From the IMG/VR virus record IMGVR_UViG_3300046665_000063, positions 1-43,797 of that record: a stretch of 43,797 nucleotides of DNA; one strand, given 5' to 3'. The translations under genes were made by a program, and so were the position numbers. The notes under the pieces were generated by a model that ran no database searches, was not told the DNA's origin, and saw nothing but the letters and a program-made list of their open reading frames with translations. Positions 8,564 to 43,797 of the stretch are shown in pieces. The stretch's first letter is position 1. Every line of letters begins with the position of its first letter. This DNA is from a virus.

Positions 8564-8638
8564 TGGCTGGAGAGGCAGGGGTCGAACCTGCGACCAACGC
8601 GTTAACAGCGCGCTGCTCTGCCACTGAGCTACTCTCCA
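8564..8638 (-). tRNA. tRNA-Asn (GTT), CCA encoded
   Basis: A full cloverleaf of 75 bases including the 3' GCCA. The acceptor stem TGGAGAG/CTCTCCA is perfect, the D arm is GCTC/GAGC, the anticodon loop is CTGTTAA with anticodon GTT, and the T arm GCAGG/CCTGC has the TTCGACC loop. The discriminator is G73, normal for tRNA-Asn. It is one base from the following tRNA, so both are probably cut from one late transcript. Confidence 0.95.
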
Positions 8639-8639
8639 T

Positions 8640-8715
8640 TGGTGGCGCGGGGTGGACTTGAACCACCGACCTTCGGCTTATGAGGCCGACGCTCTACCGA
8701 CTGAGCTACCTTGCC
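8640..8715 (-). tRNA. tRNA with CAT anticodon (elongator Met or Ile2), CCA encoded
   Basis: A 76-base cloverleaf with D arm GCTC/GAGC, anticodon stem TCGGC/GCCGA, loop CTCATAA, T arm GGTGG/CCACC and an encoded ACCA end. The acceptor stem GGCAAGG/CCGCGCC has two adjacent mismatches (A4-C69 and A5-G68), which is unusual for a working tRNA. CAT may be read as elongator Met, or as AUA-reading Ile2 if the C is lysidine-modified. The initiator type is unlikely because the first pair is normal. Confidence 0.85.
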
Positions 8716-21302: not shown

Positions 21303-21597
21303 TGGCAAAGGCCTCCTTCATGTCGAGGTTGGAACCGAGGAAGCCCTGAGCGGCCATCGAGACGATGGTGCTGGCGACGGTTCGTTTGGGGTTGATCTTC
21401 CTCCAGCCCTTCGTCGGGTGGAGCGTCCGGTCGCCCTGGCGCTCATTGAAGGCGTCGAGGGGTCCGCTGGTCCGCGTCTGCCGAAGCACGGCGAAGGCCA
21501 TGCGACGAGCTTTGCGGGTTCCCACAGTCGGTCTCACCGCTGTCGAGACAGCCCGGTTAACGGAGAGATTGCGAGAAAAGTTGGAGGCGTTCAACAT
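21295..21597 (-). CDS. Basic protein of unknown function
   Basis: 100 residues, basic, starting MLNASNFSRNLSVNRAVSTA, with an Arg/Lys-rich centre. No recognised domain. The start overlaps the previous stop by TAATG. The second to sixteenth codons contain one copy of the dispersed CTCCGTTAACGG element (21553-21570), so part of the N-terminal coding sequence may be constrained for another reason. Confidence 0.65.
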   Translation of the reverse strand: MLNASNFSRNLSVNRAVSTAVRPTVGTRKARRMAFAVLRQTRTSGPLDAFNERQGDRTLHPTKGWRKINPKRTVASTIVSMAAQGFLGSNLDMKEAFANA

Positions 21598-22048: not shown

Positions 22049-22076
22049 TATCGAAGCCTTTCCGTTATCCGAGAGA

Positions 22077-24563
22077 TTAAGAGAAAAAGAACTGGTTTGA
22101 CAGGATGCCCTTGAGATCAAGGTTGCCCATCGGCGGTATAGGAGGGATTTCCTCCTTGAGGTCGTCGGAGATCAGCGGTTCGGCTGTCTCGTAGAACTCC
22201 GAGAGAACGTCGTGGGTCTCGTACATTTCCACGAAGGCCTCTCGTATCACTTGGCTGAATTGCTCGACGTCACATGCGTGAACCCCGAAGCTGTCATGGA
22301 CAGCAGCGAAGTCGGTCATGCCGAGGTCGACAGCCTTGCTGACGGTTGCCTGGAGGTGACAGCCATCCAGGGAGTGAACGAACGATGGTGGGACGCTCGA
22401 TGCCATCTGCCGTGGGTCGAGGGTGTCGAGGTCTTCGGTGATCCTGGGTTTCAGGATTTTGCCATCGAAGAACGTCTTCACGCGGCGGCTGGCGGTGTCG
22501 AACTTGTACTGGTGGACGGGAAACCCGAGCGGGGTCTTCCATTCAATACGCCGTTGGGCTGGCTGGGACTTCCCGACGAGCCTCGACATGGACATGAGCC
22601 ACTTCATGGCCCCGTCCGCAGCGATGACTACGTGAGGGATTGCCTTCCAGACCTTGTCGGCCCCGTACATCTTGAAGGTCCACATTTCGTCCTTCGCCCA
22701 GGGCATGGCAACGCCGTCGCTGAGCTTCTCGTCGACCGCCTCGACCACGTACTGGCCGCAGGAGCTTCGAGTTCCAGAGTATGGCTTCACCATGACAGGA
22801 CGCTTGGTGATGCTGCGGTCGACCCCGAAGTCGATCCAAGCCTGGGCGAGCCCGGCGAGGTCCGTTCCGTTAAGGTCTTCCTCCATTAGCGTCACGGCCA
22901 CCTTGGCGACCGCCCCATAGACATCCTGGCGGGTGTCGCATGGGACCATGTTGACGTGGAAGCCTCCGACCTCGTCGCGAAGCATCGCGGAGAAGTGCTG
23001 GAGACCAGAGCAGGTTGCGTCCAGATCGGGATGGATGGCGCTTGGGTATTCCTCGGGGTTCCCCTCGTGAGCGTCAGCCCACTCGAAGCACCACGCTAGA
23101 AACTGGCAAGGGTTATCTGCCTTAGTCCATTCCAGGTTGTGTCGGGGGTCACTGGCCACACGTCGGGCGAGGTCAAGATGATCGCGTCCCCAGTTAGCTC
23201 GTTCGTGTAGAGGTAGCTTGTCAGCCCCCCAACAGTTAGCACCGTGGATTGCCAGCCATTTGACGCCTGTTCGGGTGAGAGGCTTCCGGGTCGCAAATTG
23301 AAGCAGCCCTTTGACATAGTCGGGTCCTTGTGGGTTCAGGCCGGATGGCTTCGCATACGCCCGGCCCCGGCTATCGAGGTCGTGCGGGAAGTAGATGGCC
23401 TCGTACTTGGACATCTTGCGAGCGATGGCGAATGACCGAGCGGCCATGACGCGCTTGCCCACCACGCGGCGGTTGTGTTCGTGGATCATGAAGCAGTACG
23501 CGCGGTACTCCTTCACGGCGGGGTGATCCGGCTCGAGCCCTTCGAGTGCCCTGGGGGCCGGGTCGGGCTTGCGGTTGTTGGCGCGGGGCAGTTTCCCGCA
23601 GGGGATGTTCTTGTCGTAGACGTACTCGATGGCGTCGAGGACGCGGGTGTTCACCTGCCAGCGGGAGAGTTGCAGGGCGTTGACCGCCTTGAGAACCCTG
23701 TCGAGTTCGCCAGCTTCCACGAGTTCCTTGAGGAGTTCGCGGTACTCTTTCTTCGAGCCCTTCACCAGCGGATACGGCGAGACGTGGTGGCTGTGGTAGC
23801 CGCCAACGTTCAGCGTCTCGACCGTCCAGTCCCTCGGGGGGATCACGGTCGGCAGGTAGGTGGTGAACAGCGCCTCGCAGTGAGCGGCGTTCTTAGAGAC
23901 CGCGTCGGTCAGCCCGGCAGACGGGAGGACCACGTCACGCTTGGCCTTGCCTGAGCCGGTGGTCTGTATCTCGATGTCGCCGGTCACGTCGCGGAAGACG
24001 TTCAGGAGGGCGATACCGACGTGCAGCATGTCCGATTTGGACCAGACCGACCACTCCAGGTTCGCCTTGGCGAAGACCTTCTGCATGTACTCCTCGCGCT
24101 TGTAGCGGGGCAGTTCACGCTTGTCGAAGTCGGCATGGATGCGCTGGGACCACTTGTGGTGTTCAGCGTCGAACTCGCGCAGTCGTATTTCATCGTGGAT
24201 CAGACCACCGGCATAGATAGCGAGGCTGGTCAGGCTGCAGGGCTTGTTGTCGAAGTAGATGCAGACCTTGTTGAAGACCGACTTGAGGACGAGGAAGGCG
24301 CAGAGCGCCGGGTCGATCTCAGCCAGGAGCTTCGAGGCGATGGACTTGGGTCCCGCCCGGCCACTGTTGGCGTCGTCAAGGAAACTCTGGATACCCTGGG
24401 TAAAGGGCATCAGATAGTTCTTGATGATGTGAGAACCGAGAAAGGTCTCACTAAAGGTTTCCTCTAAGGTTCCCTTAAGGTGATCCTTATGGAACCTCTG
24501 GATGGTAAGCCCTCGGGCCTCCTCCTCCAGCTGGATTTCTTCGAGGTAGAGATCGTCGTTCAT
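22077..24563 (-). CDS. Single-subunit DNA-directed RNA polymerase (T7 gp1-like)
   Basis: 828 residues (T7 883, SP6 874). All catalytic landmarks are present: HDLDSRGRAY (about 394-403), DATCSGLQHFSAM with Asp515, KRPVMVKPYSG with Lys587 and Tyr595 at the same spacing as T7 Lys631 and Tyr639, and AAVHDSFG with His756-Asp757. The C-terminus ends in an aromatic FFFS, like the T7 foot. It transcribes the middle and late genes from its own promoters, copies of which I see at 12500, 24595 and 33395; their SP6-like sequence predicts an SP6-like specificity loop. One copy lies directly in front of this gene, so autoactivation is expected. The start is ATG at 24563 with GAAAGAGG upstream. Confidence 0.98.
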   Translation of the reverse strand: MNDDLYLEEIQLEEEARGLTIQRFHKDHLKGTLEETFSETFLGSHIIKNYLMPFTQGIQSFLDDANSGRAGPKSIASKLLAEIDPALCAFLVLKSVFNKVCIYFDNKPCSLTSLAIYAGGLIHDEIRLREFDAEHHKWSQRIHADFDKRELPRYKREEYMQKVFAKANLEWSVWSKSDMLHVGIALLNVFRDVTGDIEIQTTGSGKAKRDVVLPSAGLTDAVSKNAAHCEALFTTYLPTVIPPRDWTVETLNVGGYHSHHVSPYPLVKGSKKEYRELLKELVEAGELDRVLKAVNALQLSRWQVNTRVLDAIEYVYDKNIPCGKLPRANNRKPDPAPRALEGLEPDHPAVKEYRAYCFMIHEHNRRVVGKRVMAARSFAIARKMSKYEAIYFPHDLDSRGRAYAKPSGLNPQGPDYVKGLLQFATRKPLTRTGVKWLAIHGANCWGADKLPLHERANWGRDHLDLARRVASDPRHNLEWTKADNPCQFLAWCFEWADAHEGNPEEYPSAIHPDLDATCSGLQHFSAMLRDEVGGFHVNMVPCDTRQDVYGAVAKVAVTLMEEDLNGTDLAGLAQAWIDFGVDRSITKRPVMVKPYSGTRSSCGQYVVEAVDEKLSDGVAMPWAKDEMWTFKMYGADKVWKAIPHVVIAADGAMKWLMSMSRLVGKSQPAQRRIEWKTPLGFPVHQYKFDTASRRVKTFFDGKILKPRITEDLDTLDPRQMASSVPPSFVHSLDGCHLQATVSKAVDLGMTDFAAVHDSFGVHACDVEQFSQVIREAFVEMYETHDVLSEFYETAEPLISDDLKEEIPPIPPMGNLDLKGILSNQFFFS

Positions 24564-24613: not shown

Positions 24614-24844
24614 CCCGGTTGGCGGCTTTTCCCCGCTAACGGAGAGATCGAGACAAAGCTCAAGCTGGCCGTCGTCGGTATAGGGTAGCCGGTCGATTTC
24701 CTGCTGGGCGCAGGCGATAAGTTCGGTCAGGAAGACCCGGATGATTTCGGTGTCTTCGGGGGAGCGATACCGGATGCGTACCTTGCCCAGGTTGCGCTGC
24801 CAGCCGAGGCTCTTGAGTGGGGTTCCAGGGACGAAGACATTCAT
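24608..24844 (-). CDS. Small protein upstream of the RNA polymerase
   Basis: 78 residues, MNVFVPGTPLKSLGWQRNLG onward. No family recognised. The last codons and the stop lie inside the polymerase promoter, so the two features constrain each other. The start overlaps the preceding stop as ATGA. Confidence 0.7.
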   Translation of the reverse strand: MNVFVPGTPLKSLGWQRNLGKVRIRYRSPEDTEIIRVFLTELIACAQQEIDRLPYTDDGQLELCLDLSVSGEKPPTGQ

Positions 24845-25457: not shown

Positions 25458-25526
25458 GTTTTCTCTCCGTTATCTGATGGCACACCGCAAACGGAACCTC
25501 TCCGTTTACGAGGATAATTGGCACAA

Positions 25527-25557
25527 ACAAAAACCCAGGAGCCGCTAAGCCCCTGGG
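25527..25557 (-). terminator. Intrinsic terminator downstream of integrase
   Basis: On the minus strand a 9-bp stem CCCAGGGGC/GCTCCTGGG (one G-T pair) with loop TTAGCG is followed by TTTTTGTTTG. It separates early/lysogeny transcription from the genes leading to RNA polymerase, so passage may need antitermination or leaky read-through. Confidence 0.9.
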
Positions 25558-25585: not shown

Positions 25586-25624
25586 GGAAAAGGATTTGCA
25601 GTCCTCTCCATGACCACTCTGGCA
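25586..25624 (-). other. tRNA-Cys-like segment, candidate attP core
   Basis: The minus strand contains a D arm (CCA/TGG) and a complete anticodon arm with stem GAGGA/TCCTT and loop CTGCAAA, anticodon GCA (Cys). The T arm and matching acceptor strand are missing, so it is not a complete tRNA gene. This is what a phage attachment core copied from a host tRNA-Cys gene would look like. Confidence 0.6.
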
Positions 25625-25691
25625 CGAGGCCTCAACTGCTAGTTCCGTGCAAACCCAATAGGTTGAGGGTATAGGAACGTCAAGCAGGATT

Positions 25692-25738
25692 TGTCACAGC
25701 TGGCACAGATTTGGCACAGCGTGGCACAGTCTGTCACG
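25692..25738 (-). repeat. Five direct repeats TGKCACAG, about 10-bp period
   Basis: Read on the plus strand, TGTCACAG, TGGCACAG, TGGCACAG, TGGCACAG and TGTCACG start at 25692, 25701, 25712, 25722 and 25732. The spacing of 9, 11, 10 and 10 bases puts them on one face of the helix. The last one enters the end of the integrase gene. They are good candidates for integrase arm-type or excisionase sites. Confidence 0.85.
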
Positions 25739-26714
25739 CGGCCATTGCCAGCGCTTTTGCGGCTACGTCGAGATCGTCAGGGACGAGGTTCGTGTAGCGC
25801 ATGGTCACTTGGATGCTCTTGTGTCCGAGCCACTTCATGACCATCGGTAGGGGCACCCCGGCGATGACCAGCCGGGTAGCACAGGTATGCCGCAGCATGT
25901 GCGGGACGAACTCGTCCTCGTCGACCTTGAGGTGCGCCTTGAGGCTCGCCCAGTGATCGCGGAACGTCCAGTAGGGCATGAGTTCCCCAAAGGGCGTCGG
26001 GCTGTTCGTCAGCTTGCAGACCTCGGCCCATGCCTCTGCAGCCTGAGGCACCAGAGGGACCGTTCGGGTGGTCGAGGTCTTCGAGAGCGTGTGGTGGAAG
26101 ATCACGCTGCGGCCCGGCGTCACGCGCTTGCGGTCGAGGGTCAGCGCCTCGTTCATGCGACAGCCGGTGTAGAGCAGGAAGTTGAACAGGTGCTTGGCCA
26201 CCGGCTTGCCGATGTGGTCGAAGTATAGGTTGACCGCCCTCTCCTGCTCTCGGGACATCGTGAGTTCCCTCGCGTTGCCCTCGGGCTGACGTGCCTCGGT
26301 GAAGTCAGGCAGCGTCATGAGGCGACCTTTACGCTTAGCTTCCTTGAGGAGCTTCGTGAGGTTCGCCATCTTGCGGTTGATCGTGCCGCCCTGCTTGCCA
26401 TCGCGCTTCATGCTGATGACCATCTTCTCGACTAGCGCGTCGTTGATCTTGTCGAGCGCGGTGTCCCTCGGGATGTAGCGGTAGATGACCCGCCAGTTCC
26501 CCTCGATGTACTTGCGGGACTTAGCGATGCCCCACAGCTTGTCGAATGCCTCGTCGACGAAGTCACCAAGGGTGTTGGAAGCGGAGGGCTTGTAGCCACC
26601 CTCCACGGCCTTCTCATAGTCCTCGGCCTCAGCCTGGGTCTTGAACGAGACGCGCTTGCGCACCCCGTCGACCAGTACGTCGGCCTGCCACCGGTTACCC
26701 CGTAGCCTTGCCAT
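25734..26714 (-). CDS. int: Tyrosine integrase
   Basis: 326 residues from ATG at 26714 (GGAG upstream). The N-terminal part is an arm-binding/core-binding region; the C-terminal catalytic domain has the full set: Arg186 in LYTGCRMNEA, Lys212 in the beta hairpin, His272 and Arg275 in PHMLRHTCATRL, His298 in LGHKSI and the nucleophile Tyr307 in MRYTN. It should recombine attP with a host site, here probably a tRNA-Cys gene. The gene overlaps the upstream regulator by 20 bases, and attP-like repeats begin at its stop. T7 has no integrase, so this phage is likely able to enter lysogeny. Confidence 0.96.
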   Translation of the reverse strand: MARLRGNRWQADVLVDGVRKRVSFKTQAEAEDYEKAVEGGYKPSASNTLGDFVDEAFDKLWGIAKSRKYIEGNWRVIYRYIPRDTALDKINDALVEKMVISMKRDGKQGGTINRKMANLTKLLKEAKRKGRLMTLPDFTEARQPEGNARELTMSREQERAVNLYFDHIGKPVAKHLFNFLLYTGCRMNEALTLDRKRVTPGRSVIFHHTLSKTSTTRTVPLVPQAAEAWAEVCKLTNSPTPFGELMPYWTFRDHWASLKAHLKVDEDEFVPHMLRHTCATRLVIAGVPLPMVMKWLGHKSIQVTMRYTNLVPDDLDVAAKALAMAA

Positions 26715-27069
26715 AGCTCTGCACTCCATTGACCAAATCCTTGATGAACGCTCGGCCCTTGTTGGTCAGGACAAGGGAGCGCTTCCGACGATCTTCGCCG
26801 AAACCGATGGTGATGTACTGGTAGCCACCAGTCATTTCCTGGTGGCCCTCGCCCCAGTAGTAGGCGTTGCGGGAGGCAGCGCCGGACTTGATGCCGACGT
26901 TCTTCTCGATGTCCTGCACCGAAATGTCCTCGTGTTTGTAGTTCGCGACCGCCACCTCCAGCAGGGCCAGGACGGTGGACACCTGCATCTTGCTGTCGAG
27001 TGTGTTGAAGCGCCGCAGCGCGTTCATGATGACGGTCAATGCCTTCAAGTCGGACACGTCGGTGGTCAT
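26695..27069 (-). CDS. Winged-helix (MarR-like) regulator next to integrase
   Basis: 124 residues. Residues about 28-110 read as a MarR-type winged helix: helix MQVSTVLALLEVAVANYK, HTH around VQDIEKNVGIKSGAASRNAY and a beta wing including KRSLVLTNKGRAFIKDL, a typical MarR ending. Together with the integrase overlap this suggests a lysogeny or integration regulator. It could act as repressor or as directionality factor; sequence does not decide. Confidence 0.8.
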   Translation of the reverse strand: MTTDVSDLKALTVIMNALRRFNTLDSKMQVSTVLALLEVAVANYKHEDISVQDIEKNVGIKSGAASRNAYYWGEGHQEMTGGYQYITIGFGEDRRKRSLVLTNKGRAFIKDLVNGVQSYGKATG

Positions 27070-27481: not shown

Positions 27482-27946
27482 TTAAGATTTGGTGACTCCT
27501 CTGTCAAATGTGAAAGGGTCCATTTTGGTCAGGTCCCGGCTGGCCCTGAGAACGGCCTTTTCTATGTGTGCGTAGAAGGGCTTAACGTGGGACCCTTCAA
27601 CCTGGGGATTGAGCCGCATGACGGTGCGCCTACCTTCCCTTACGACAGCTACACGGCCCCGTTGCATTAGCTCACGCACATGTCGGGAGACCGATGTCCT
27701 TGGGTAGTGTGTGACGGCGACGAGGGACTTGAGGTCCATTGGTCGGCCCTCCATTTCGCCCAGGCGGATCGCCATCAGGACGAGGGTGACCTCGGGTGGC
27801 TCTTTGAGCTTGGCGAGGACAGCGCCGTGGATGTCGAGGATCATGCGGATCAGGACGGCCCGCTTGTGGTTCTCCAGATTGTCAATTGCCATGATGTTCA
27901 CGATCTCCAAAAAGCTGAAATAGTTCGTGGAGTGCGGTGGTTCCAT
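27482..27946 (-). CDS. Winged-helix transcription regulator
   Basis: 154 residues. A helix-turn-helix at about 68-96 (RPMDLKSLVAVTHYPRTSVS then RHVRELMQRG) is followed by a wing (VAVVREGRRTVMRL), as in MarR-type and similar small repressors. The flanking helices probably dimerise. With the regulator at 26695 this gives two DNA-binding proteins next to the integrase, as expected for a lysis-lysogeny switch. The start is ATG at 27946; MAIDN at residue 19 is a possible alternative, and neither has a strong ribosome site. Confidence 0.8.
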   Translation of the reverse strand: MEPPHSTNYFSFLEIVNIMAIDNLENHKRAVLIRMILDIHGAVLAKLKEPPEVTLVLMAIRLGEMEGRPMDLKSLVAVTHYPRTSVSRHVRELMQRGRVAVVREGRRTVMRLNPQVEGSHVKPFYAHIEKAVLRASRDLTKMDPFTFDRGVTKS

Positions 27947-30561: not shown

Positions 30562-31110
30562 TCAGTTCGCCCATGGGTCCGTCAGGACGATCTCGCCCGT
30601 TGACGGTCGGCGCATGTAGTTGTTGCGGTGGACGTCGGTGCAGTAGTGCCAGCCGTTGCGAGACGCGATGCGGTCACGGTGGCGCTCAGTGCGGCGCAGG
30701 AAAGCGGCCATGGGTGGCGCTATGGCCTCGCCAATGTTGCCGTCATACCAATAGTCACGGAGCCCGGCCCCGGTGAACTCGTCGTTGTCTATGTGTTCCA
30801 GCCGCTCGATCTCGGCGTAGTAATAGCCCTCGTACACCTCAACGGCGTGGACCCTCGGCGCATGTGGCGAGCGTGTCTTGGCGTTGACGCGGATGTAGTT
30901 CAGCCAGCCGTCGTTCGCGTGGTTGCTGTAGCTGAAACCGCCGATCTTTAGGACCGTCTCAGGGCACTCAGGGTGGACATAGGCCGCGCCGTATGCGCCG
31001 CTTCCGAGCAGCTGCCAGCCGCTCTTTTCGAGCCGGTGCCGCGCCTCCATGTAATCCTGCTTGTTCTCAGGGTTAGCGGTGCCGATGTGAGAGGTGAACG
31101 TGGTGGACAT
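30562..31110 (-). CDS. Protein kinase-like early protein (T7 gp0.7-like)
   Basis: 182 residues from ATG at 31110 (GAGG 7 bases upstream). A glycine-rich loop LGSGAYGAAYVHPECPETVL is followed by Lys55 in VLKIG. A catalytic loop CTDVHRNNYM has Asp159 and Asn164, and Asp178 in LTDPW takes the place of DFG. T7 gp0.7 has the same layout (GNGHFSAAYSHP, then FDMHSGNIMF and ITDPVS). In T7 it phosphorylates host RNA polymerase and other proteins and its C-terminal part shuts off host transcription. Here only the kinase domain is present; the shut-off region is missing. A copy of CCTATACC lies 12 bases before the ATG. Confidence 0.85.
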   Translation of the reverse strand: MSTTFTSHIGTANPENKQDYMEARHRLEKSGWQLLGSGAYGAAYVHPECPETVLKIGGFSYSNHANDGWLNYIRVNAKTRSPHAPRVHAVEVYEGYYYAEIERLEHIDNDEFTGAGLRDYWYDGNIGEAIAPPMAAFLRRTERHRDRIASRNGWHYCTDVHRNNYMRRPSTGEIVLTDPWAN

Positions 31111-31182
31111 GGTTGTGCCTCGGTATAGGAACACGGGTTGCCTTAGGGTGCCCCTAGCGGAGACACCCGGTTAACGGAGGGA

Positions 31183-31956
31183 TTAAGCGAAAGCTCTGGC
31201 GGTAGCGCCGTGGGCGACGATCACCATGGAGACCTTGGCCTTGGCCGAGAGACCGCCACAGGCCTTGCAGTCAGCGCAGCTAGTCCGATAGCCAGCCTCT
31301 TTCGATGCCGGGCAAACGACCTCACGCTTGGCCACGACCTCGCCATCTGCAGCGCGGACCCGGAAGGTGCGCCAGCCCAACTCATGGGCATCGTTCATGT
31401 CGGCAATGCTGTCAGCGCTGGCCATGCAAAGCAGGCGGAACGCTTGGAACTCGACCTGCCGCCATTGGTGGGTGTAGCCGTTGACGACAGCGGCGTTGAC
31501 CGTGGCACGACGCCAGACCATGAACGGTGCAGCTGCAGGGTCACCATAGGAGCCCATGCGGAAGGCGAGACCACGGAACAGGTCAGCCGTAATAGCCACA
31601 TCGTAATCGACGCCGGGCTTGGCATAGCGACCGCGCAGATAGGCCTTGAACGTCGACTGGACGGACTGGAAGACCCTAACGTAGCAGGTTCCCTTGTTCG
31701 CCGGGCGATGCGGGCAATCCCCGCAGACCGATGCATCATCGCCGCTTTTCAGCGCCGTGATAGGGTCGACGTCAGACCGTATGATGAACGTCTGGACCAT
31801 AGCGCCGGTCTTTTCGTTCTTGCTACGCACCGCAATGCGGTTGGCGATGACGACAATGGGCTTGCCATCAATCATCGACGGCCCCTCGTAGAGGATGACG
31901 CCGGTATAGGTGTTGCGCTTGAGTGCCTTAAGCATGTCAGCTGCAGTCTTTATCAT
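31183..31956 (-). CDS. Early protein with Cys-rich motifs, first large early gene
   Basis: 257 residues from ATG at 31956. It contains CGDCPHRPANKGTCYV and a second cysteine group near the C-terminus (SCADCKACGG), probably zinc or Fe-S sites. Between them is an alpha-beta region with Arg/Gly-rich parts (AFRMGSYGDPAAAPFMVWRR). I know of related phage proteins without known function. The frame remains open to 32340, but that part overlaps a row of hairpins and has a poor composition, so I treat it as leader. As the first sizeable product behind the leader RNA it is likely to act early on the host. Confidence 0.75.
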   Translation of the reverse strand: MIKTAADMLKALKRNTYTGVILYEGPSMIDGKPIVVIANRIAVRSKNEKTGAMVQTFIIRSDVDPITALKSGDDASVCGDCPHRPANKGTCYVRVFQSVQSTFKAYLRGRYAKPGVDYDVAITADLFRGLAFRMGSYGDPAAAPFMVWRRATVNAAVVNGYTHQWRQVEFQAFRLLCMASADSIADMNDAHELGWRTFRVRAADGEVVAKREVVCPASKEAGYRTSCADCKACGGLSAKAKVSMVIVAHGATARAFA

Positions 31957-31989
31957 CGGAGAGTTCCCGTTAAGCGTGAAGATTTGACA

Positions 31990-32160
31990 AAGTGAGCCCG
32001 TCAGTTGGGCTGACCATGACAAGCCTTCCGGCTTGCGTTTCGTGAGACCGTCGCGGCTTGGCCGTCTCACGTTGACTTGGCATTCCTGCCATGTCCCACC
32101 GAAACCAGTCTCACGACTACGGGTGGAGCGCCTTATGGGTTGGATGCGGGTGCATCGGGC
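31990..32160 (-). ncRNA. Structured leader RNA of the early region
   Basis: Six hairpins follow each other on the minus strand, listed 5' to 3': GATGC-ACCC-GCATC (32143-32156), AGTC-GTGA-GACT (32107-32118), TGGCA-GGAA-TGCCA (32078-32091), GTGAGAC...GTCTCAC (32042-32070), AAGCC-GGAA-GGCTT (32021-32034) and AGCCC-AACTGAC-GGGCT (31995-32011). Three have GNRA tetraloops only when read on this strand, which supports an RNA transcribed towards the early genes. No U-tract terminator ends it. It could be a 5' leader controlling the first gene, an antiterminator RNA or a separate small RNA. Confidence 0.6.
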
Positions 32161-32311
32161 GGTGGAGGCGACTAGGGACTTTCCCCTTAGGGCAGGCTTG
32201 CAAGGCCAGAAACTTTGTCTCGACTGCGGTGTCTCTCTTTCGTTTGTTTGTGTTGTTCGTCTGGTGTGATTTGAATGTAGCCTCTCGGTTATCGGAGGGA
32301 AATAAGAATTT

Positions 32312-32401
32312 TCAGAAATCGTATAAGGCCTTGATTTCATTACGATCTTTCTTCATCGCCAACGGCATGTTTCCGCTATCGGAGAGGCTTTTTAGGCCCA
32401 T
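32312..32401 (-). CDS. Possible first early ORF, 29 residues
   Basis: Starts MGLKSLSDSGNMPLAMKKDR and ends in NEIKALYDF, with GAGG 4 bases upstream of the ATG. An internal ATG at residue 12 has GCGGAAAC in front. A charged helix; it may be a leader peptide or a small early protein. Evidence is only the ribosome site and composition. Confidence 0.35.
   Translation of the reverse strand: MGLKSLSDSGNMPLAMKKDRNEIKALYDF
32334..32362 (-). promoter_or_regulatory. Weak candidate host promoter for the early region
   Basis: TTGGCG, 17 bases, TGAAAT on the minus strand (4 of 6 each). It would start transcription just upstream of the structured leader. Other weak pairs exist upstream (TTGACC, 18 bases, AAAAAT at about 32877-32906). 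No pair is strong enough to be sure of. Confidence 0.25.
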
Positions 32402-32922
32402 GAAACCTCAAGAAATCTCGAGTCAAATCAATGAGTTAGTCGAGGTCGAGCCCTGATTTGCACCATGCGAAACCAGCCCAACGGTATAGGATCGCCCTAG
32501 ATCAGGGATCAGAACGCGCGCGTAAGGGTCACCAATGGTAACTAATGGGTCTCGGGTTGAACGTATGGCCAGCGGATCAGGGCAGCGCCGGTAAACGTGA
32601 GGAACCCTCGGGTTTCCCCTTGGGGCAAAAAAGGTGGGAGGGAACACAAGGGAACGAATGTTCCAAGATGGAATGAACGTTCCACGCTAGGGAACTCGGG
32701 CAATCTGGCAAGGCGAGGAGTATGCATCCAGTGAGAGCCCTAATGAAATCAATGGGTTAGCTAGTGATTGTGCCATGATCTGTGCCAGCGATGGCGCGTA
32801 TAGGGCGGATCACAGGTCTTCTAGGGGGGCCACGGGGGGAACCGGGGTCTCTGGTGTATACGTAAGGGGGAACAAATTTTTCTCCAAAATGTTCGTATGG
32901 GTCAACCCGAGGGAAACCTGAG
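32402..32922. other. Long non-coding region, likely near the virion DNA ends
   Basis: About 520 bases without a convincing gene. It holds two copies of the octamer (32483 exact, 32797 with one change), a cluster of GGGAAC/GTTCC units (32639-32700), two TGGCACA units on the minus strand near 32770-32790 that resemble the attP repeats, and a diverged repeat pair AAATCAATGRGTTAG at 32425 and 32745. In T7-like phages the region between the early genes and the large terminase holds the terminal repeat and the early host promoters. I expect the same here but cannot fix the boundaries. Confidence 0.6.
32639..32700 (+). repeat. Cluster of GGGAAC repeats with inverted copies
   Basis: Within about 60 bases there are several GGGAAC or GGAAC units and two inverted GTTCC units, including the dyads GGAACGAATGTTCC and GGAATGAACGTTCC; more GGGAAC units follow at 32838, 32867 and 33354. 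This is an iteron-like array that could be a protein-binding, packaging or replication site. Confidence 0.6.
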
Positions 32923-33150
32923 ATGCCCCGAGTCTACTATGGCAAGCGGAAGAATGGATGGGGACTGACCCGCAAGGGGACCCGAGAGTTCCATGAGGCT
33001 CACTGGGCCGTGCCCCTGGAGGAGACTGGGGAGGACGTGCCGGTGCATGAGGTTTCCTCGGGGGGCCTCTGGCTCGGGACTCTTGACGAGGCCACAGGAC
33101 AGGACCTAACAGTCGATCCTCAACCCAAGTCTGTCAGGAAGGAAGCATGA
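32923..33150 (+). CDS. Plus-strand small protein, unknown function
   Basis: 75 residues, MPRVYYGKRKNGWGLTRKGT onward: a basic start, then an acidic part (PLEETGEDVPVHEV). GAGGG lies about 10 bases before the ATG. It is one of only two convincing plus-strand genes and overlaps the second as ATGA. Its transcription runs towards the large terminase gene, opposite to all other genes. No family recognised. Confidence 0.65.
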   Translation: MPRVYYGKRKNGWGLTRKGTREFHEAHWAVPLEETGEDVPVHEVSSGGLWLGTLDEATGQDLTVDPQPKSVRKEA

Positions 33151-33450: not shown

Positions 33451-35172
33451 TCATACTATTCGTTTCCCAGCGTAGGACATCCTCTGTCCACCGAAGTGCT
33501 GGTTGAGAGGGCTCTGGTGGAGCTTGGCGATCTGAGCCTGCATCCACTCCTCATGCTCCCTCGCCACGATCTTCCCAGCATCCTGGTTCATCATCTCGAC
33601 GAAGTGGGCGATCAGCATGGACAAGGCGTCCACGCGGTCGTCGAAGCGCAGTGCGTCCTTCTCCCGGCAGATGTGGGTCATCTGGTGGAACAGGGACTTG
33701 TGGCTGCGGATCAGGCTCTCGTACTTCTGGATCGAGGCGTCGTCCTTCTCGAAGACCTCAGGGTCGACGATCAGCCTGTGGGAACCGATGACCGGCTCCA
33801 GCACGTCGAGGATGCGGCGTTCCTTCATGGTGGTCGAGCGGACCTCCACGATCTCAGCCGTCACACCCTTGCGGAGCAGGACGGGTTCGAGGAGCTTGGC
33901 GAACATGCCGTCACCGAAGTTGCTCTCGATCACGATGGTCTGGATGCGATGCTTCTTGGCGATGGCCACCAGGGCGAGGAGCGTGTCCTCGTCGTAGCCA
34001 CCATGCAGACCACCGGCCTCAGGGACCCATGTGTTGCCCGCGAGGTGCAGGCCGACAGCGTAGCCCGTCTCGTCCTTGCCGCGACCCGAGGGATCGATTG
34101 ACATGACGCGGTGCTGGTAGTCGAGGAACTCGTTGGAGTGCCCTCCAGCGGCATACAGGCGGTCACCAGCCATGCCGTGCTTCGGGAGGTCCTTGAGTTC
34201 CCTGTCGGGATTGGGGAGCCAGAAGACGTCCACAGGGGCCTTCTGAGGGGGCACCGGCATGACGATCAGGTCCTTGAGCTTGAGCGGGTAGCGCTCCTCG
34301 TCGGACAGCTTGGTGTTCAGCATGAACTGCAGCTGGTAGCCAGCGGCACCATACTCGGCGCGACGGGCAATCAGTTCGTCCACGTCGAACCGCTCAGGGT
34401 CCGTGGGCTTCCCGTACATCTTGTTCTGGAACATCTTCACGATGCGGGGTGCCAGGTCTAAGCCGTAGCCAGCGATCTCGTCGACCGTGGGAACCTGCGA
34501 AGGCCAGATGCGCTTGGTGAAGGTCTCAGGCAGCTTGTTGTAGATCGAGTCCTCGGTCTGTGGGGTGCCGAGGTAGATGACCCGAGCGTGAGCCAGGGGC
34601 TTCAAGATAGCGGAGTATTCGCGGGTCTTCTCGATGAGCAGATCGCGAGCGGCGACCGTCATGGAGTTGTTCATGACCTCGACGTCGTCCGAGACGATGA
34701 TGTCAGCGCGGCCACCGGTCAGCTGGCTGTCGATGCCCTTCGCGAACACGCTAGGGGTCTGGTCGGACATCGCCGGGCCGACGTCGAACTCGACGCGGGA
34801 GGAGCGCTGGTTGGCCTTGGGCTTGAGGAAGGCAAGCTCAGGGACCGTCTGGATCAGCTGCTGGCAGAAGATAACGAAGTTGTCGGCGCGGTTCTTGGAC
34901 GCCGAGACCACCATGATCTTCAGCTGCGGGTTACAGTAGAGGCACCACAGGACGAAGGCGGCAGTCAGGAAGGACTTCCCGACGCCCCGGAAGGCCTCGA
35001 TACAAATCTTGTTCGGCCCATGCTGTAGGAAATGGGCGATGTCGTACTGGGTCGGCGTGGGGCTCGGGAGCCTCAGGTGCTGCCAGATCAGCCAGACGAA
35101 ATTACGAAGGTCCTCGCGTAGAGGATCAGGGCTCGACATGGAGGTCGAAGCCAGCAGGGTCTGCGTGGTCAA
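33451..35172 (-). CDS. Terminase large subunit (T7 gp19-like)
   Basis: 573 residues (T7 gp19 has 586). The ATPase domain has Walker A in EAFRGVGKSFLTAA (residues 59-72), followed by LKIMVVSASKNRADNFVIF as in T7, and the nuclease domain has SIDPSGRGKDETGYAV with a metal-binding Asp. It drives DNA packaging and cuts concatemers. The start is TTG at 35172 by frame; ATG at residue 12 (35139) is the alternative, since neither has a good ribosome site. It is separated from the small subunit by two non-terminase genes. Confidence 0.96.
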   Translation of the reverse strand: MTTQTLLASTSMSSPDPLREDLRNFVWLIWQHLRLPSPTPTQYDIAHFLQHGPNKICIEAFRGVGKSFLTAAFVLWCLYCNPQLKIMVVSASKNRADNFVIFCQQLIQTVPELAFLKPKANQRSSRVEFDVGPAMSDQTPSVFAKGIDSQLTGGRADIIVSDDVEVMNNSMTVAARDLLIEKTREYSAILKPLAHARVIYLGTPQTEDSIYNKLPETFTKRIWPSQVPTVDEIAGYGLDLAPRIVKMFQNKMYGKPTDPERFDVDELIARRAEYGAAGYQLQFMLNTKLSDEERYPLKLKDLIVMPVPPQKAPVDVFWLPNPDRELKDLPKHGMAGDRLYAAGGHSNEFLDYQHRVMSIDPSGRGKDETGYAVGLHLAGNTWVPEAGGLHGGYDEDTLLALVAIAKKHRIQTIVIESNFGDGMFAKLLEPVLLRKGVTAEIVEVRSTTMKERRILDVLEPVIGSHRLIVDPEVFEKDDASIQKYESLIRSHKSLFHQMTHICREKDALRFDDRVDALSMLIAHFVEMMNQDAGKIVAREHEEWMQAQIAKLHQSPLNQHFGGQRMSYAGKRIV

Positions 35173-39797: not shown

Positions 39798-41356
39798 TAG
39801 CTGACCTTGAGGATGTTGATGGTGCTGACCGCGCCGAACTTCACGATGGTAATACCGAACGTGGAGCCGACCGTAGTGTCGAGTGCGTCACCAGTGATCG
39901 CGCTGAAACCAGACAGAGTGATCGCGCCAGCGCCAGCGACGTTGTTCATGTAGATGTACAGCGTGTAGCAGGAGGCACCGTTGGCGGCGTCTTTCGCGAG
40001 CGTGAACGCACCAGCGTTGTGCAGGTACTTGAAGTTGCCTCCCGTCTGCGTGAGCGTCAGGGTGCCGGACCCGGTGATGTCATGGAAGCTGCTGGCGATG
40101 TAGCCAACACCTGCGTTGATCGCGGTCTCCGCGTCCTTACGGACCCATCGCGTGTCAGCGATGCTGAGGTTGCCCATGTGGACGATCTCATAGGCATTCG
40201 CGCCCATGGACAGCCCACCGACCTTCCACTTGTTGTCGGTGTCGATGCCGAAGTTTGCGAAATAGAGGCCGGGCCGGTCGAACGTCATAAAAGACGCGCT
40301 ACCCGCGCCGGACGCTGAACGAGCCCTTAGGGTTGTCGAGGTGCCGGGGTCTGTTCCGAGCCCAAGAGCTTGACCGGTCTGGGCGGTGATCGTCACAGTG
40401 TTGTTGAACGTCTGTGCTGCCGTCCAAGTGGTGGCTACAGCCGCGAGGTAATTCTGGATGCGTAGGGTGAGTGCATTCCAGTCTATCTTCTTGAGCCCCC
40501 ACGAGGCCGCGCTGTCTACGATCAGAAACTCGTCAGCGGCAACTGGAGTGTTCTTGGCGGTCGAGCCGTGGACGGCGTTCGAGATGCTGCCAGTTACGTA
40601 CCCAAGGGCCTTGCGAGCCCAATGGAACGCCGAGAATTGACCACCGGAAACCGGGGTGTCCTCAACCTCGTTGGCCCACTTCTGAGCCAGATCGCGAGCG
40701 GTCTCAGCTGCAGCCTTAGCGGTGTCGGCACCAGCCTTAGCGGTATCAGCACCGGCCTTTGCAGTGTCGGCACCGGCCTTTGCCGTGTCAGCCCCGACCT
40801 TCGCGGTGTCCGCCCCGGTCTTGGAGGTTGCCGCGTTGCTGGCTGAGGTGGCCGCAGCGTTCTGGCTGGCGAGAGCAGCAGCAGCCGAAGTCGCAGCAGC
40901 GACCTTGGCAGCGTCCACGATCACCTTGTCGGCGTCGAAGCGCGTGTCGAGGTAGGACTTGCTGACCGCGTCACCTGCATTGGTAGGTGTGGCGACGTTC
41001 TTGATCTTGAGGTTGGTCGCATCCCAGGAACCGTCAGTGGCCACCTGCATGGCGTTGTCCGCAACCTCCTCCGAGACGTGGAGGGACTGCAGGAACGAAC
41101 CGTTCAGCTGGCTGTCGACGAGGATCGAGCCGTTGATGTAGGTGTTGACCGGAGCCTTGGAGGTCTGGCGGTAAATCTTGAGGGCACCCACGGGGGCCGT
41201 GGTGAACCGGATCATGTAAGTCGAGAGGAACGTAAACGGGACCGAAGCCCCGTTCACTGTAGCCTTCACGAACGTTTGAGACAGATACTCGAAGGGAACC
41301 GAATAGTCCGTCGTCGACCCCGTAGCGTTGGGGTAGAACACGTAGCTGTTGGCCAT
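39797..41356 (-). CDS. Tail fibre protein (T7 gp17-like N-terminus)
   Basis: 519 residues (T7 gp17 has 553). The first 140 residues match the T7 fibre anchor (YVFYPNATGSTTDYSVPFEY, then FTTAPVGALKIYRQT). An Ala-rich coiled coil with five GADTAKA heptads (181-215) forms the shaft. A beta-rich C-terminal part ends in a trimer tip (FGAVSTINILKVS) and should bind the receptor. It starts 7 bases after the gp16-like stop. Confidence 0.92.
   Translation of the reverse strand: MANSYVFYPNATGSTTDYSVPFEYLSQTFVKATVNGASVPFTFLSTYMIRFTTAPVGALKIYRQTSKAPVNTYINGSILVDSQLNGSFLQSLHVSEEVADNAMQVATDGSWDATNLKIKNVATPTNAGDAVSKSYLDTRFDADKVIVDAAKVAAATSAAAALASQNAAATSASNAATSKTGADTAKVGADTAKAGADTAKAGADTAKAGADTAKAAAETARDLAQKWANEVEDTPVSGGQFSAFHWARKALGYVTGSISNAVHGSTAKNTPVAADEFLIVDSAASWGLKKIDWNALTLRIQNYLAAVATTWTAAQTFNNTVTITAQTGQALGLGTDPGTSTTLRARSASGAGSASFMTFDRPGLYFANFGIDTDNKWKVGGLSMGANAYEIVHMGNLSIADTRWVRKDAETAINAGVGYIASSFHDITGSGTLTLTQTGGNFKYLHNAGAFTLAKDAANGASCYTLYIYMNNVAGAGAITLSGFSAITGDALDTTVGSTFGITIVKFGAVSTINILKVS
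40712..40816 (-). repeat. Five 21-base tandem repeats in the fibre gene
   Basis: The five GADTAKA/V units are also repeated at DNA level. The array can change length by slippage or recombination in steps of seven residues and so alter the fibre shaft without shifting the frame. Confidence 0.85.
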
Positions 41357-41362
41357 GTAGCC

Positions 41363-43797
41363 CTATTTGATTGCGAAGATGTCATCCAGCGTGGAGCCCC
41401 TGGTCCGTTGGACCTGAGCGCCGATGCCCTTGGCGACCTTTTCGGTCACGTCGAGTGTCTCTGGAGAAGGCAGGCGAACGCCGTAGCGGTCGTCTTTGAA
41501 GATGGTCGGGTCGACCATGAGGTTGTGCTTGAGGTAGTCCTTGGCGTTCTTGGTGTAGGCACCGAAGATCGTCTTGAACACCTTCACCCTGGCTTCGGGT
41601 GTGAGGGACTGGTAGCCCTTGGTGTCGATGGTCCGACGCAGGGCGTCCTCCAGGGTCTCCCCTTTCTTGATCAGCACCTTACCGATGTCGATCCGGTCGC
41701 CGGTCGTAGCCGTTGGCTTGAGGAGGTCCTTGTCAGCCTTGCCCTTGTAGACGAGATCGCGGTAGCGGTCCCAGGCGTTGGCACCATCGACGGTCTTCAT
41801 CTTCGTCAGCGAGGGAGCCTCACTGCGCGTCAGCCAGTCCACCTTGCCCGGTTGCACCCCGAGGTTCTTCCAGTAGGCGGCGTCAAAGACACCGTCTGGT
41901 CGATCCAGGGAGAGCCCGAGGTCCCCGAGAGCGTTCAGGCGAACGTACTCGGCGCGGAGCGGGTCGTCGGTTTTCACAGGCTTGCTGTTGAGCGGGTCCA
42001 TGCCCCGATAGGGGTCCTCGACCGGGTGGCCCAGGAAGTCCAGACGGGTGTAGCCGGTGTGGAAGCCAGCGGATGCCAGCACCTCGTTGAGGAAGCCCTC
42101 AGCGCTGTCCTGGGTCCAGTCGTCATTGACGATGCCCTGGTTCTTGCCAGCCATACGAACAGCGCCGGGCGTGAACGCCTTGACGTAGTTCTCAGCGAAC
42201 GTGACGAGAGCCCGAGGGTCCCCGTCCTTCGCAACCTTGGCCATGGTGTCCCACAGGTCCCCAATGCCCCGCAGGCCCGACGCATCGGACATGAGGTTCA
42301 CCGAGAGGTACCCGAGGGCTGAGCCGTAGGTGGTGGCGAAGGCGAAGGCGCTGTCGTTCGGCTCGACGTAGTTCCCGTTCTGCATCTGCAGCTGGTTCTC
42401 CCGCTTCATGTCCTTCATCACTCCGAGGAGCATGAGGGGCGCTGAGTACGGAAGGAGCCGGGTCAGGTCGACCGCGTGGCCACCGACGATGAGTGACGAC
42501 GCAGGGTACTCCTGCATCTGAGCCATCTTGGCGTCCCAGCCCTTGTAGCCTGCCGGGCCGGTGATATCGATCTGGCCGCTTTCCATGAGAGCCCAACCGG
42601 CACCCATGGTGAGGTAGCCGAGGCGCTGCCGACCGATCGCTCGCTGTTTGGCGGCGAGGCCGTTGGCTCCCGAGAAGTCGTCCATGAACTTGGTGAGACC
42701 CACGAACTTACGTCCGTACTTGGTCTTCCCGAGGAGCGTCATGACCACAGCCGGGATTGGCTGGACCGTCTGCATCGAGTTCGAGGAGATGTTCACGAGG
42801 GTGCGCCAGAACGGGATCGAGCCCTGGGCGAAGGCGTTGACGATGGGGTTCGGATGGTTCCTCAGGTTGTCCGCGAACTGCGCCAGCTTGCCGGTGGCAT
42901 AGCGGGTGTCGAAGGCAGACTGCCAGCTGGTCGAGGCGACGTCGATCTTGAGGGCCGGGTCGAGGATGGCACCATTGGCGTCGAAGACGCTGCCGACGTA
43001 ATCCTTGGCGAGGCGCTTGGCCTCCACCTTCCCTGCCCCGCCCTTGATGGCGAGATCGTAGCCGTCCGCGTAGGCAACACCAGCTGCCCTCCAGACCTTG
43101 GAACCCTCGGACGCCGAGTGAGCCAGTGTCGCAGCGAAGTCCCACATGCGGTAGAACATGTACTGCGCCCACTTCTTGTCGTCGGCCAGGGTCTTGTAGT
43201 CCTTCTTGATCGAGTGCGAACCGTCGAAGATGTCGAAGTCGTCGAGGGACCTTCCGGTCTTGTAGACATCCTTCATCGCCTTGAAGCCACGGTTGGTGGC
43301 CAGGGCGTAGCCTGCGTATTCCCTCCAGGCGCGCTTCACGTTGCCCCGAAGGACGTGTTGTGAGATCGGCAGCAGGGCGTTGTTCAGGGTGTTCGACACT
43401 GCTTCCAGGGTCGCCGTCGAGAACTGGCCGAGCATGGCCGAGGCGCGCATGTCGTTGAAGTAGCGGAGCCAGGAGCCCTCAAGGGCGTTGCGCTGTTCCT
43501 TCGTCAGCCGGGCGAGCCGGTTGGAGTTGAGGTTTTCGATCTGACCCGCACGGGCCGCGTCGAACTCGTCGAACATCCGGTACAGGTCGTCCAGCACGTC
43601 GATGGTGCTGTAGCCCAGGTCTTCCAGGCGGTAGGCGTTCGCTGCGATGAACTCGGCCTTGCTGGAGAACAGGTGGTAACCCTCCCCCAGGCCTTCCTTG
43701 ACCTTGGCCTGCATTTCACGCTCGGCCTCGTCGAACATCTGGAGGGTCCGGTCGTCGAACCTGCGGCCCTGACGGAGATGGAAGGCATAGCTCGATG
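41363..43797 (-). CDS. Internal virion protein D (gp16-like), C-terminal part
   Basis: About 810 codons, joined to 1-1417 through the terminal overlap. It is a long helical region with few cysteines (for example MFDEFDAARAGQIENLNSNR). Hydrophobic segments in its middle (LGYLTMGAGWALMESG and LLPYSAPLMLLGVM) could be involved in forming the DNA passage through the inner membrane. It ends at 41363 just before the fibre gene, as T7 gene 16 precedes 17. Confidence 0.88.
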   Translation of the reverse strand, partial: SSYAFHLRQGRRFDDRTLQMFDEAEREMQAKVKEGLGEGYHLFSSKAEFIAANAYRLEDLGYSTIDVLDDLYRMFDEFDAARAGQIENLNSNRLARLTKEQRNALEGSWLRYFNDMRASAMLGQFSTATLEAVSNTLNNALLPISQHVLRGNVKRAWREYAGYALATNRGFKAMKDVYKTGRSLDDFDIFDGSHSIKKDYKTLADDKKWAQYMFYRMWDFAATLAHSASEGSKVWRAAGVAYADGYDLAIKGGAGKVEAKRLAKDYVGSVFDANGAILDPALKIDVASTSWQSAFDTRYATGKLAQFADNLRNHPNPIVNAFAQGSIPFWRTLVNISSNSMQTVQPIPAVVMTLLGKTKYGRKFVGLTKFMDDFSGANGLAAKQRAIGRQRLGYLTMGAGWALMESGQIDITGPAGYKGWDAKMAQMQEYPASSLIVGGHAVDLTRLLPYSAPLMLLGVMKDMKRENQLQMQNGNYVEPNDSAFAFATTYGSALGYLSVNLMSDASGLRGIGDLWDTMAKVAKDGDPRALVTFAENYVKAFTPGAVRMAGKNQGIVNDDWTQDSAEGFLNEVLASAGFHTGYTRLDFLGHPVEDPYRGMDPLNSKPVKTDDPLRAEYVRLNALGDLGLSLDRPDGVFDAAYWKNLGVQPGKVDWLTRSEAPSLTKMKTVDGANAWDRYRDLVYKGKADKDLLKPTATTGDRIDIGKVLIKKGETLEDALRRTIDTKGYQSLTPEARVKVFKTIFGAYTKNAKDYLKHNLMVDPTIFKDDRYGVRLPSPETLDVTEKVAKGIGAQVQRTRGSTLDDIFAIK
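43744..43797. repeat. Terminal overlap of the circular map (copy 2)
   Basis: Pairs with bases 1-54, with three synonymous differences. See the copy at the start of the window. Confidence 0.9.

Follow-up and report, generated by a model that had tools for sequence, protein, structure and literature searches.

The early leader of phage T7 carries a single RNase III processing hairpin. The put RNA of phage HK022 is about 70 nt long and forms two stems (PMC9378689). Antitermination in the leaders of rRNA operons involves boxA, Nus factors, and SuhB; PMC4807359 and PMC5725501 describe this boxA system as acting mainly on Rho-dependent termination, and PMC5725501 gives GYTCTTTAANA as the gammaproteobacterial boxA consensus. 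In Pseudomonas phage LUZ100, the order of elements is int, terminator T4, a phage promoter, and the RNA polymerase (RNAP) gene, and the study of this phage leaves open the first activation of the polymerase, for which sporadic read-through was proposed (PMC10134795).

We analyzed IMG/VR record IMGVR_UViG_3300046665_000063 over positions 1-43,797 (43.8 kb; referred to as the window). Judged from its sequence, the window is a temperate T7-like phage of Rhizobiales-type hosts. Its early region has the layout of such phages, with a T7-type RNAP, a tyrosine integrase, and an attP between int and RNAP (Table 1). The nearest named relatives of its polymerase belong to the Autographiviridae (e.g., Roseobacter phages CRP-804 and CRP-403 and Rhizobium phage Pasto), and the closest relatives of its terminase are those of L017 (95%) and of Aminobacter prophages (75-78%). 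Searches with the gene 31956 protein in genome contigs and with the kinase-like protein in viral contigs returned no relatives. The record ends share 52 nt at 96% identity (3-54 and 43746-43797), as an imperfect end overlap, and overlapping direct-repeat copies with 21-nt spacing are present at 40697-40822.

The hairpin row and its leader

An earlier note on this DNA described six consecutive stem-loops at 31990-32160, three of them with GNRA loops on the minus strand. The predicted fold bears out this description, and no GNRA loop is present on the plus strand. The stems of the row are unrelated to one another, and the 3' arm of hairpin 5 has an alternative partner, GCAAGCC near 32200. With perfect stems, the complement strand folds equally well, and folding energy does not separate the strands; the row was assigned to the minus strand because of the GNRA loops and the direction of the early genes. 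The absence of a convincing gene in the row was likewise borne out. A 128-codon in-frame extension of gene 31956 over the row has no PHROG match, and in the nearest homologues, L002 and L003, this frame is closed after 16 codons; a coding extension was rejected for these reasons. An extension of this length is open by chance in 132 of 5000 shuffles.

The hairpin row is predicted to form the body of an untranslated 5' leader of the early transcript. The minimum free energy of the 316-nt leader is -105.7, compared to a shuffled mean of -92.0 (sd 5.4), and the 191-nt fold around the row has a z score of -2.7. Local fold z scores of -2.0 to -3.0 on the minus strand and up to -3.8 on the plus strand form a local peak within 2.6 kb, at 31950-32210. 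The density of hairpins had been called unexpected by chance, and this claim is only moderately supported, because a strict count (stem of at least 5, loop of 3-8) gave 4 simple hairpins where shuffles gave 1.5 (p = 0.027), and as many occur in 100 of 1455 stretches of this genome (7%). GNRA loops, a feature chosen after the fact, number 3 per 350 nt compared to 0.10 expected, a count reached in 0 of 300 shuffles. We found no homologue of the row by blastn against all loci fetched, and a search of viral contigs with an exact 18-nt pattern taken from the row gave no match. In Rfam 15, only two tRNAs of the window reached the gathering score, and nothing credible was returned at 31900-32500.

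The leader begins with a start sequence, AAATCACACCAGACGAAC, that is common, with small changes, to about 18 terL-linked relatives. In many of these relatives, the start sequence lies directly behind a promoter-like TTGCA..GATAAC, and TTGCAGCAGTGTAACGAATTGCCGATAACT was found directly before it. The start region is 91% identical to that of L073 over 35 nt, and the L017 type of start sequence is AAATCACACC. DNA identity with L017 (86%) covers 32927-32260 and breaks off abruptly at the first leader bases; it begins again at 31188, close to a phage-promoter-like repeat. The leader and the first gene thus form one swapped segment. For this repeat, four occurrences of ATCTCTCCGTTAACCGGG were counted compared to 0.03 expected. 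Repeat TTTCTCNNAATCTCTCCGTTAACCGGG is located on the minus strand at 21552-21578, 22060-22086, 24631-24657, and 31166-31192, and its copies are probably promoters of the phage RNAP.

Table 1. Features of the window referred to in the text; all are on the minus strand
Feature	Position	Strand	Details
Two adjacent tRNA genes	8567-8715	-	
T7-type RNA polymerase	22077-24563	-	PF00940, phrog_414
Intrinsic terminator CCCAGGGGCTTAGCGGCTCCTGGG-TTTTTGTTT	25525-25557	-	10-bp stem and T-run, -18.4 kcal/mol, z -3.5
attP-like stretch homologous to host tRNA-Cys	25590-25633	-	86-89% in four Hyphomicrobiales genomes
Tyrosine integrase (int)	25734-26729	-	PF00589, phrog_1
T7 0.7-type protein kinase match	30562-31134	-	phrog_15752, E 1e-15
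Phage-RNAP promoter-like repeat TTTCGCTTAATCCCTCCGTTAACCGGG	31166-31192	-	Repeat family D5
First early gene (gene 31956), 257 aa, function unknown	31183-31956	-	phrog_2554
Untranslated leader, 316 nt (predicted)	31957-32272	-	No coding signal; MFE below shuffles
Closing helix, 3' strand (predicted)	31959-31993	-	Overlaps ribosome-binding site CGGGAACTCTCCG
Hairpin 6	about 31995-32014	-	GTCAG..CTGAC or AGCCC..GGGCT
Hairpin 5	32019-32036	-	GCAAGCC-GGAA-GGCTTGT, GNRA
Hairpin 4	32041-32071	-	CGTGAGAC..GTCTCACG
Hairpin 3	32074-32095	-	TGGCA-GGAA-TGCCA core, GNRA
Hairpin 2	32096-32126	-	CCACC..GGTGG; inner AGTC-GTGA-GACT at 32119-32106, GNRA
Hairpin 1	32143-32156	-	GATGC-ACCC-GCATC
Closing helix, 5' strand (predicted)	32212-32237	-	GAGAG, CCG, AGT, GACAAAGT; from pairing probabilities
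Conserved initial transcribed sequence AAATCACACCAGACGAACAACACAAACAAACGAAAG (putative)	32238-32272	-	In about 18 terL-linked relatives
Early promoter region (putative)	32266-32310	-	L017 identity; overlapped by phage-RNAP-promoter-like CCTCCGATAACCGAGAG
Terminase large subunit (terL)	33451-35172	-	

Leaders of relatives and their boxA

Relatives of the window have leaders of about 0.3-0.75 kb at the same place, which are structured and apparently untranslated. Many contain a boxA, GTTCTTTGA[CA]A, 79-102 nt after the start sequence. The exact form TTCTTTGACA is present at 13 terminase-linked viral loci (near-identical phages counted), compared to an estimated 0.2 or so exact matches expected by chance in the sequence scanned, and near-exact forms are present at several more. 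The leader of Mesorhizobium phage Lo5R7ANS carries boxA GTTCTTTGACAA, and that of Caulobacter phage S2B carries the close form GCTCTTTGACATC. In LUZ100 (OP329100.1, L292:648-660), boxA GCTCTTTAACAAT follows the mapped host promoter P2 by about 40 nt and fits the gammaproteobacterial consensus. Phyllobacterium (CTGTTCTTTGAAAATTGAATA) and Aureimonas (GGGTTCTTTGAGAATTGAAG) have the same element as the phage relatives in their rRNA-operon leaders, and Agrobacterium and Sinorhizobium have close variants there. These comparisons were made with plasmid-borne rRNA operons of related genera, because the 16S leaders of the prophage hosts were not found in the genome sequences examined. That temperate T7-like phages have a host-rRNA-type boxA in their early leaders is a better-supported finding than the claim made for the hairpins, and we found no description of it in open-access full texts. 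Four similar, non-coding-looking elements with a boxA-like TGTTCTTTGACAATGGCCAGACCGGAAACGGGGCGTGGC were also observed in the Aminobacter anthyllidis genome (L246, L248, L249, and L251; around 1501, minus strand), away from the prophage.

The minus strand of the window leader contains no boxA within 1 mismatch, and its best score with a boxA position weight matrix (4.9) is near the random median (4.1). A boxA-like CACTTTGTCAAAT at 31998 was rejected, as it is weak, scores like random sequence, and is itself a strand of the predicted closing helix. Relatives whose first gene is of the same type as in the window also lack boxA in most, though not all, cases, and Rhizobium phage Pasto has a long untranslated leader without boxA. 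Pasto has a start sequence similar to that of the window (AATCACACAAGACGAAC; L293:575-592), and a tRNA-Leu and a terminator are located between its int and RNAP genes.

The leaders of relatives are made up of modules that are exchanged among phages. In the common leader fold of L017 and Aminobacter prophage L150 (covariance model R1), 10 of 68 pairs are doubly compensated and 1 of 68 is broken. In a second module, R2, double changes are seen in 10 pairs compared to 5.0 in shuffles (0 of 500 shuffles), and its covariance model matches the leaders of further phages. R2 was located at L042:8878-8998 and in the leaders of L033, L035, L045, L049, L061, L072, and L074, as well as in those of L078, L092, and L245; an Rfam scan of relatives' leaders gave no match for R2 in the leaders scanned. 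Run against the window with filters off, the R1 model reached 3.0 bits (E 0.11) on the correct strand, compared to about 200 bits for true R1 members, and the R2 model reached 1.5 bits; neither model matches the window. GNRA clusters were rejected as a feature common to relatives, whose leaders do not share them.

The terminator beside attP and the proposed antitermination

The terminator at 25527, which had been named as an obvious target for antitermination, is real, conserved, and located between attP and the phage polymerase gene. It is kept in L017 (prophage record G005) and in Aminobacter prophage G001. Genomic matches of the attP-like stretch are mostly predicted tRNA-Cys (GCA) genes. 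G005 ends in the same tRNA-Cys half, which in this prophage is joined directly to the same terminator, followed by the polymerase region. The Aminobacter prophage instead has a homologous terminator joined to a tRNA-Leu half. In several integrated relatives, int and RNAP are at opposite ends of the prophage. This arrangement, with the terminator between att and RNAP, suggests that in a lysogen the terminator would block host transcription from the tRNA gene. In an infection, the phage polymerase would be made only if host polymerase that starts at the early promoter crosses the same terminator. Upstream of int, a 154-aa protein (27482-27946, minus strand) has a weak, below-cut-off match to DUF7343 and may correspond to the MarR-like regulator that LUZ100 and CRP-804 have next to int.

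We propose that the row is a cis-acting, boxA-independent antitermination leader, which is the most likely reading of this locus, and one that we put forward tentatively. On phage entry, host RNAP would make the early transcript with the 316-nt leader at its 5' end. Transcribed directly behind the early promoter, the leader would fold and render the elongating host polymerase resistant to termination, and the resistant polymerase would cross the early genes, the integrase gene, and the att-side terminator to reach the phage RNAP gene. In many relatives, boxA would serve in the leader; here, the hairpin domain would do the same job without boxA. According to this model, polymerases from the early promoter would pass the terminator, and host polymerases entering the prophage from the disrupted tRNA gene would be stopped.

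The antitermination reading is favored by the position of the row directly after the conserved promoter and start sequence, by the untranslated and structured leaders, many with boxA, that occupy the same position in relatives, and by the conserved terminator that separates attP from the polymerase gene. It is opposed by the absence of boxA from the window, by the moderate excess of structure, and by the hairpins themselves, which are without homologue and whose pairings are predicted. Moreover, because the boxA system acts mainly against Rho-dependent termination, it does not by itself imply read-through of an intrinsic terminator. The suggestion in the earlier note that the row is an antiterminating leader is thus partly supported: the untranslated early leader, the terminator, and the boxA of relatives speak for it, and the lack of boxA in the window speaks against it.

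Other explanations and comparison with known systems

The leader might instead control or process the first early gene, a possibility that we regard as doubtful. Its paired ends would cover the ribosome-binding site (RBS), so that folding of the leader would delay or limit translation of gene 31956, or its closing helix would be an RNase III site, as at the early processing sites of T7. The row ends directly before gene 31956, the leader and this gene are within the one segment swapped relative to L017, and the predicted closing helix, in which most of the GAGAG, CCG, and GACAAAGT blocks are paired at probabilities of 0.94-0.99, reaches the Shine-Dalgarno sequence, the RBS having a mean pairing of 0.57. 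However, end-to-end pairing this strong occurs in 5% of shuffles, and in most relatives, including L017 with its identical RBS sequence, the RBS is not sequestered over long range to this degree. For these two reasons, the closing helix is kept as a prediction, and RBS sequestration was rejected as a feature shared by relatives. The first gene of L002 and L003, which is 86% identical to that of the window, also stands behind an unrelated leader, which argues against control of this gene by the row. The row may still be a control element for gene 31956, as the earlier note suggested, because the predicted helix reaches the RBS, although relatives do not share this trait. It is rather unlikely that the hairpins are under no selection and reflect chance folding of a GC-rich patch that recombination placed between the conserved start sequence and gene 31956. 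The moderate statistics, the lack of homologues of the hairpins, and the break in L017 homology exactly at the start sequence are consistent with such a patch, but it would leave unexplained both the three GNRA loops on the transcribed strand, a number that none of the 300 shuffles reached, and the structured leaders of many relatives at the same place, two groups of which covary strongly.

It is very unlikely that the early transcript is processed into a trans-acting or decoy RNA, such as a sponge for an RNA-binding protein. Two loops contain GGA and the long leaders of relatives are built of swappable RNA modules, but GGA is present in only these two loops of the row, the loop feature is not common to relatives, there is no Rfam match, and we saw no sign of a separate promoter; the decoy suggested by the earlier note thus found no support. 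Least probable of all, in our view, is a role of the palindromes at the DNA level, such as in firing of a replication origin, packaging, or recombination. The row would lie near a genome end that we place downstream of terL, and the motifs just upstream resemble phage promoters; against a role as DNA, the sequence conserved with L017 is 32260-32927 and not the hairpins, the stems are unrelated to one another, and attP is elsewhere.

In a broader version of the antitermination reading, the hairpin domain would be an RNA antiterminator that needs no boxA and that evolved in an alphaproteobacterial T7-like phage separately from HK022 put. It would have replaced the host-rRNA-type boxA leader of its kin by recombination, and by carrying transcription past the att-side terminator it would allow the phage polymerase to be expressed for the first time and so contribute to the lysis-lysogeny decision. 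This combination of claims is, as a whole, unlikely. The boxA-free leader of the window would offer a natural test of whether RNA structure alone suffices for antitermination.

The earlier note had compared the row with HK022 put. Both are hairpin-rich leaders directly downstream of an early promoter (putative here), and action in cis is what we propose for the window. In contrast to the two stems of put, the window has about six stems in some 280 nt, and its host is alphaproteobacterial. NC_002166 carries no annotation of the put sites, and self-comparison of this record did not recover them. The likeness to the lambda nut/N system applies to the relatives, which are temperate phages with a boxA-containing early leader, whereas the window is without boxA and no N-like gene or nut site was recognized in it. 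As with T7 R0.3, the T7-like genome of the window has a structured leader that separates its putative early promoter from the first early gene, but in the window this leader is a multi-hairpin domain. The boxA of relatives is the same as that of host rRNA-operon leaders (phage, GTTCTTTGAAAACTGAATA; host, CTGTTCTTTGAAAATTGAATA) and likewise comes early in a long structured RNA that is not translated. The window also has a long untranslated structured RNA behind a putative promoter; unlike the rRNA leaders, it lacks boxA, and its RNA runs into protein genes. LUZ100 differs from the window in having its own promoter, P3, for the lysogeny module, and its authors do not discuss antitermination (words beginning with "antitermin" are absent from the text of PMC10134795). 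LUZ100 resembles the window in the order of int, terminator, phage promoter, and RNAP, and its leader behind P2 holds boxA GCTCTTTAACAAT. The boxA in such leaders, that of LUZ100 included, provides a testable answer to how the phage polymerase is first switched on.
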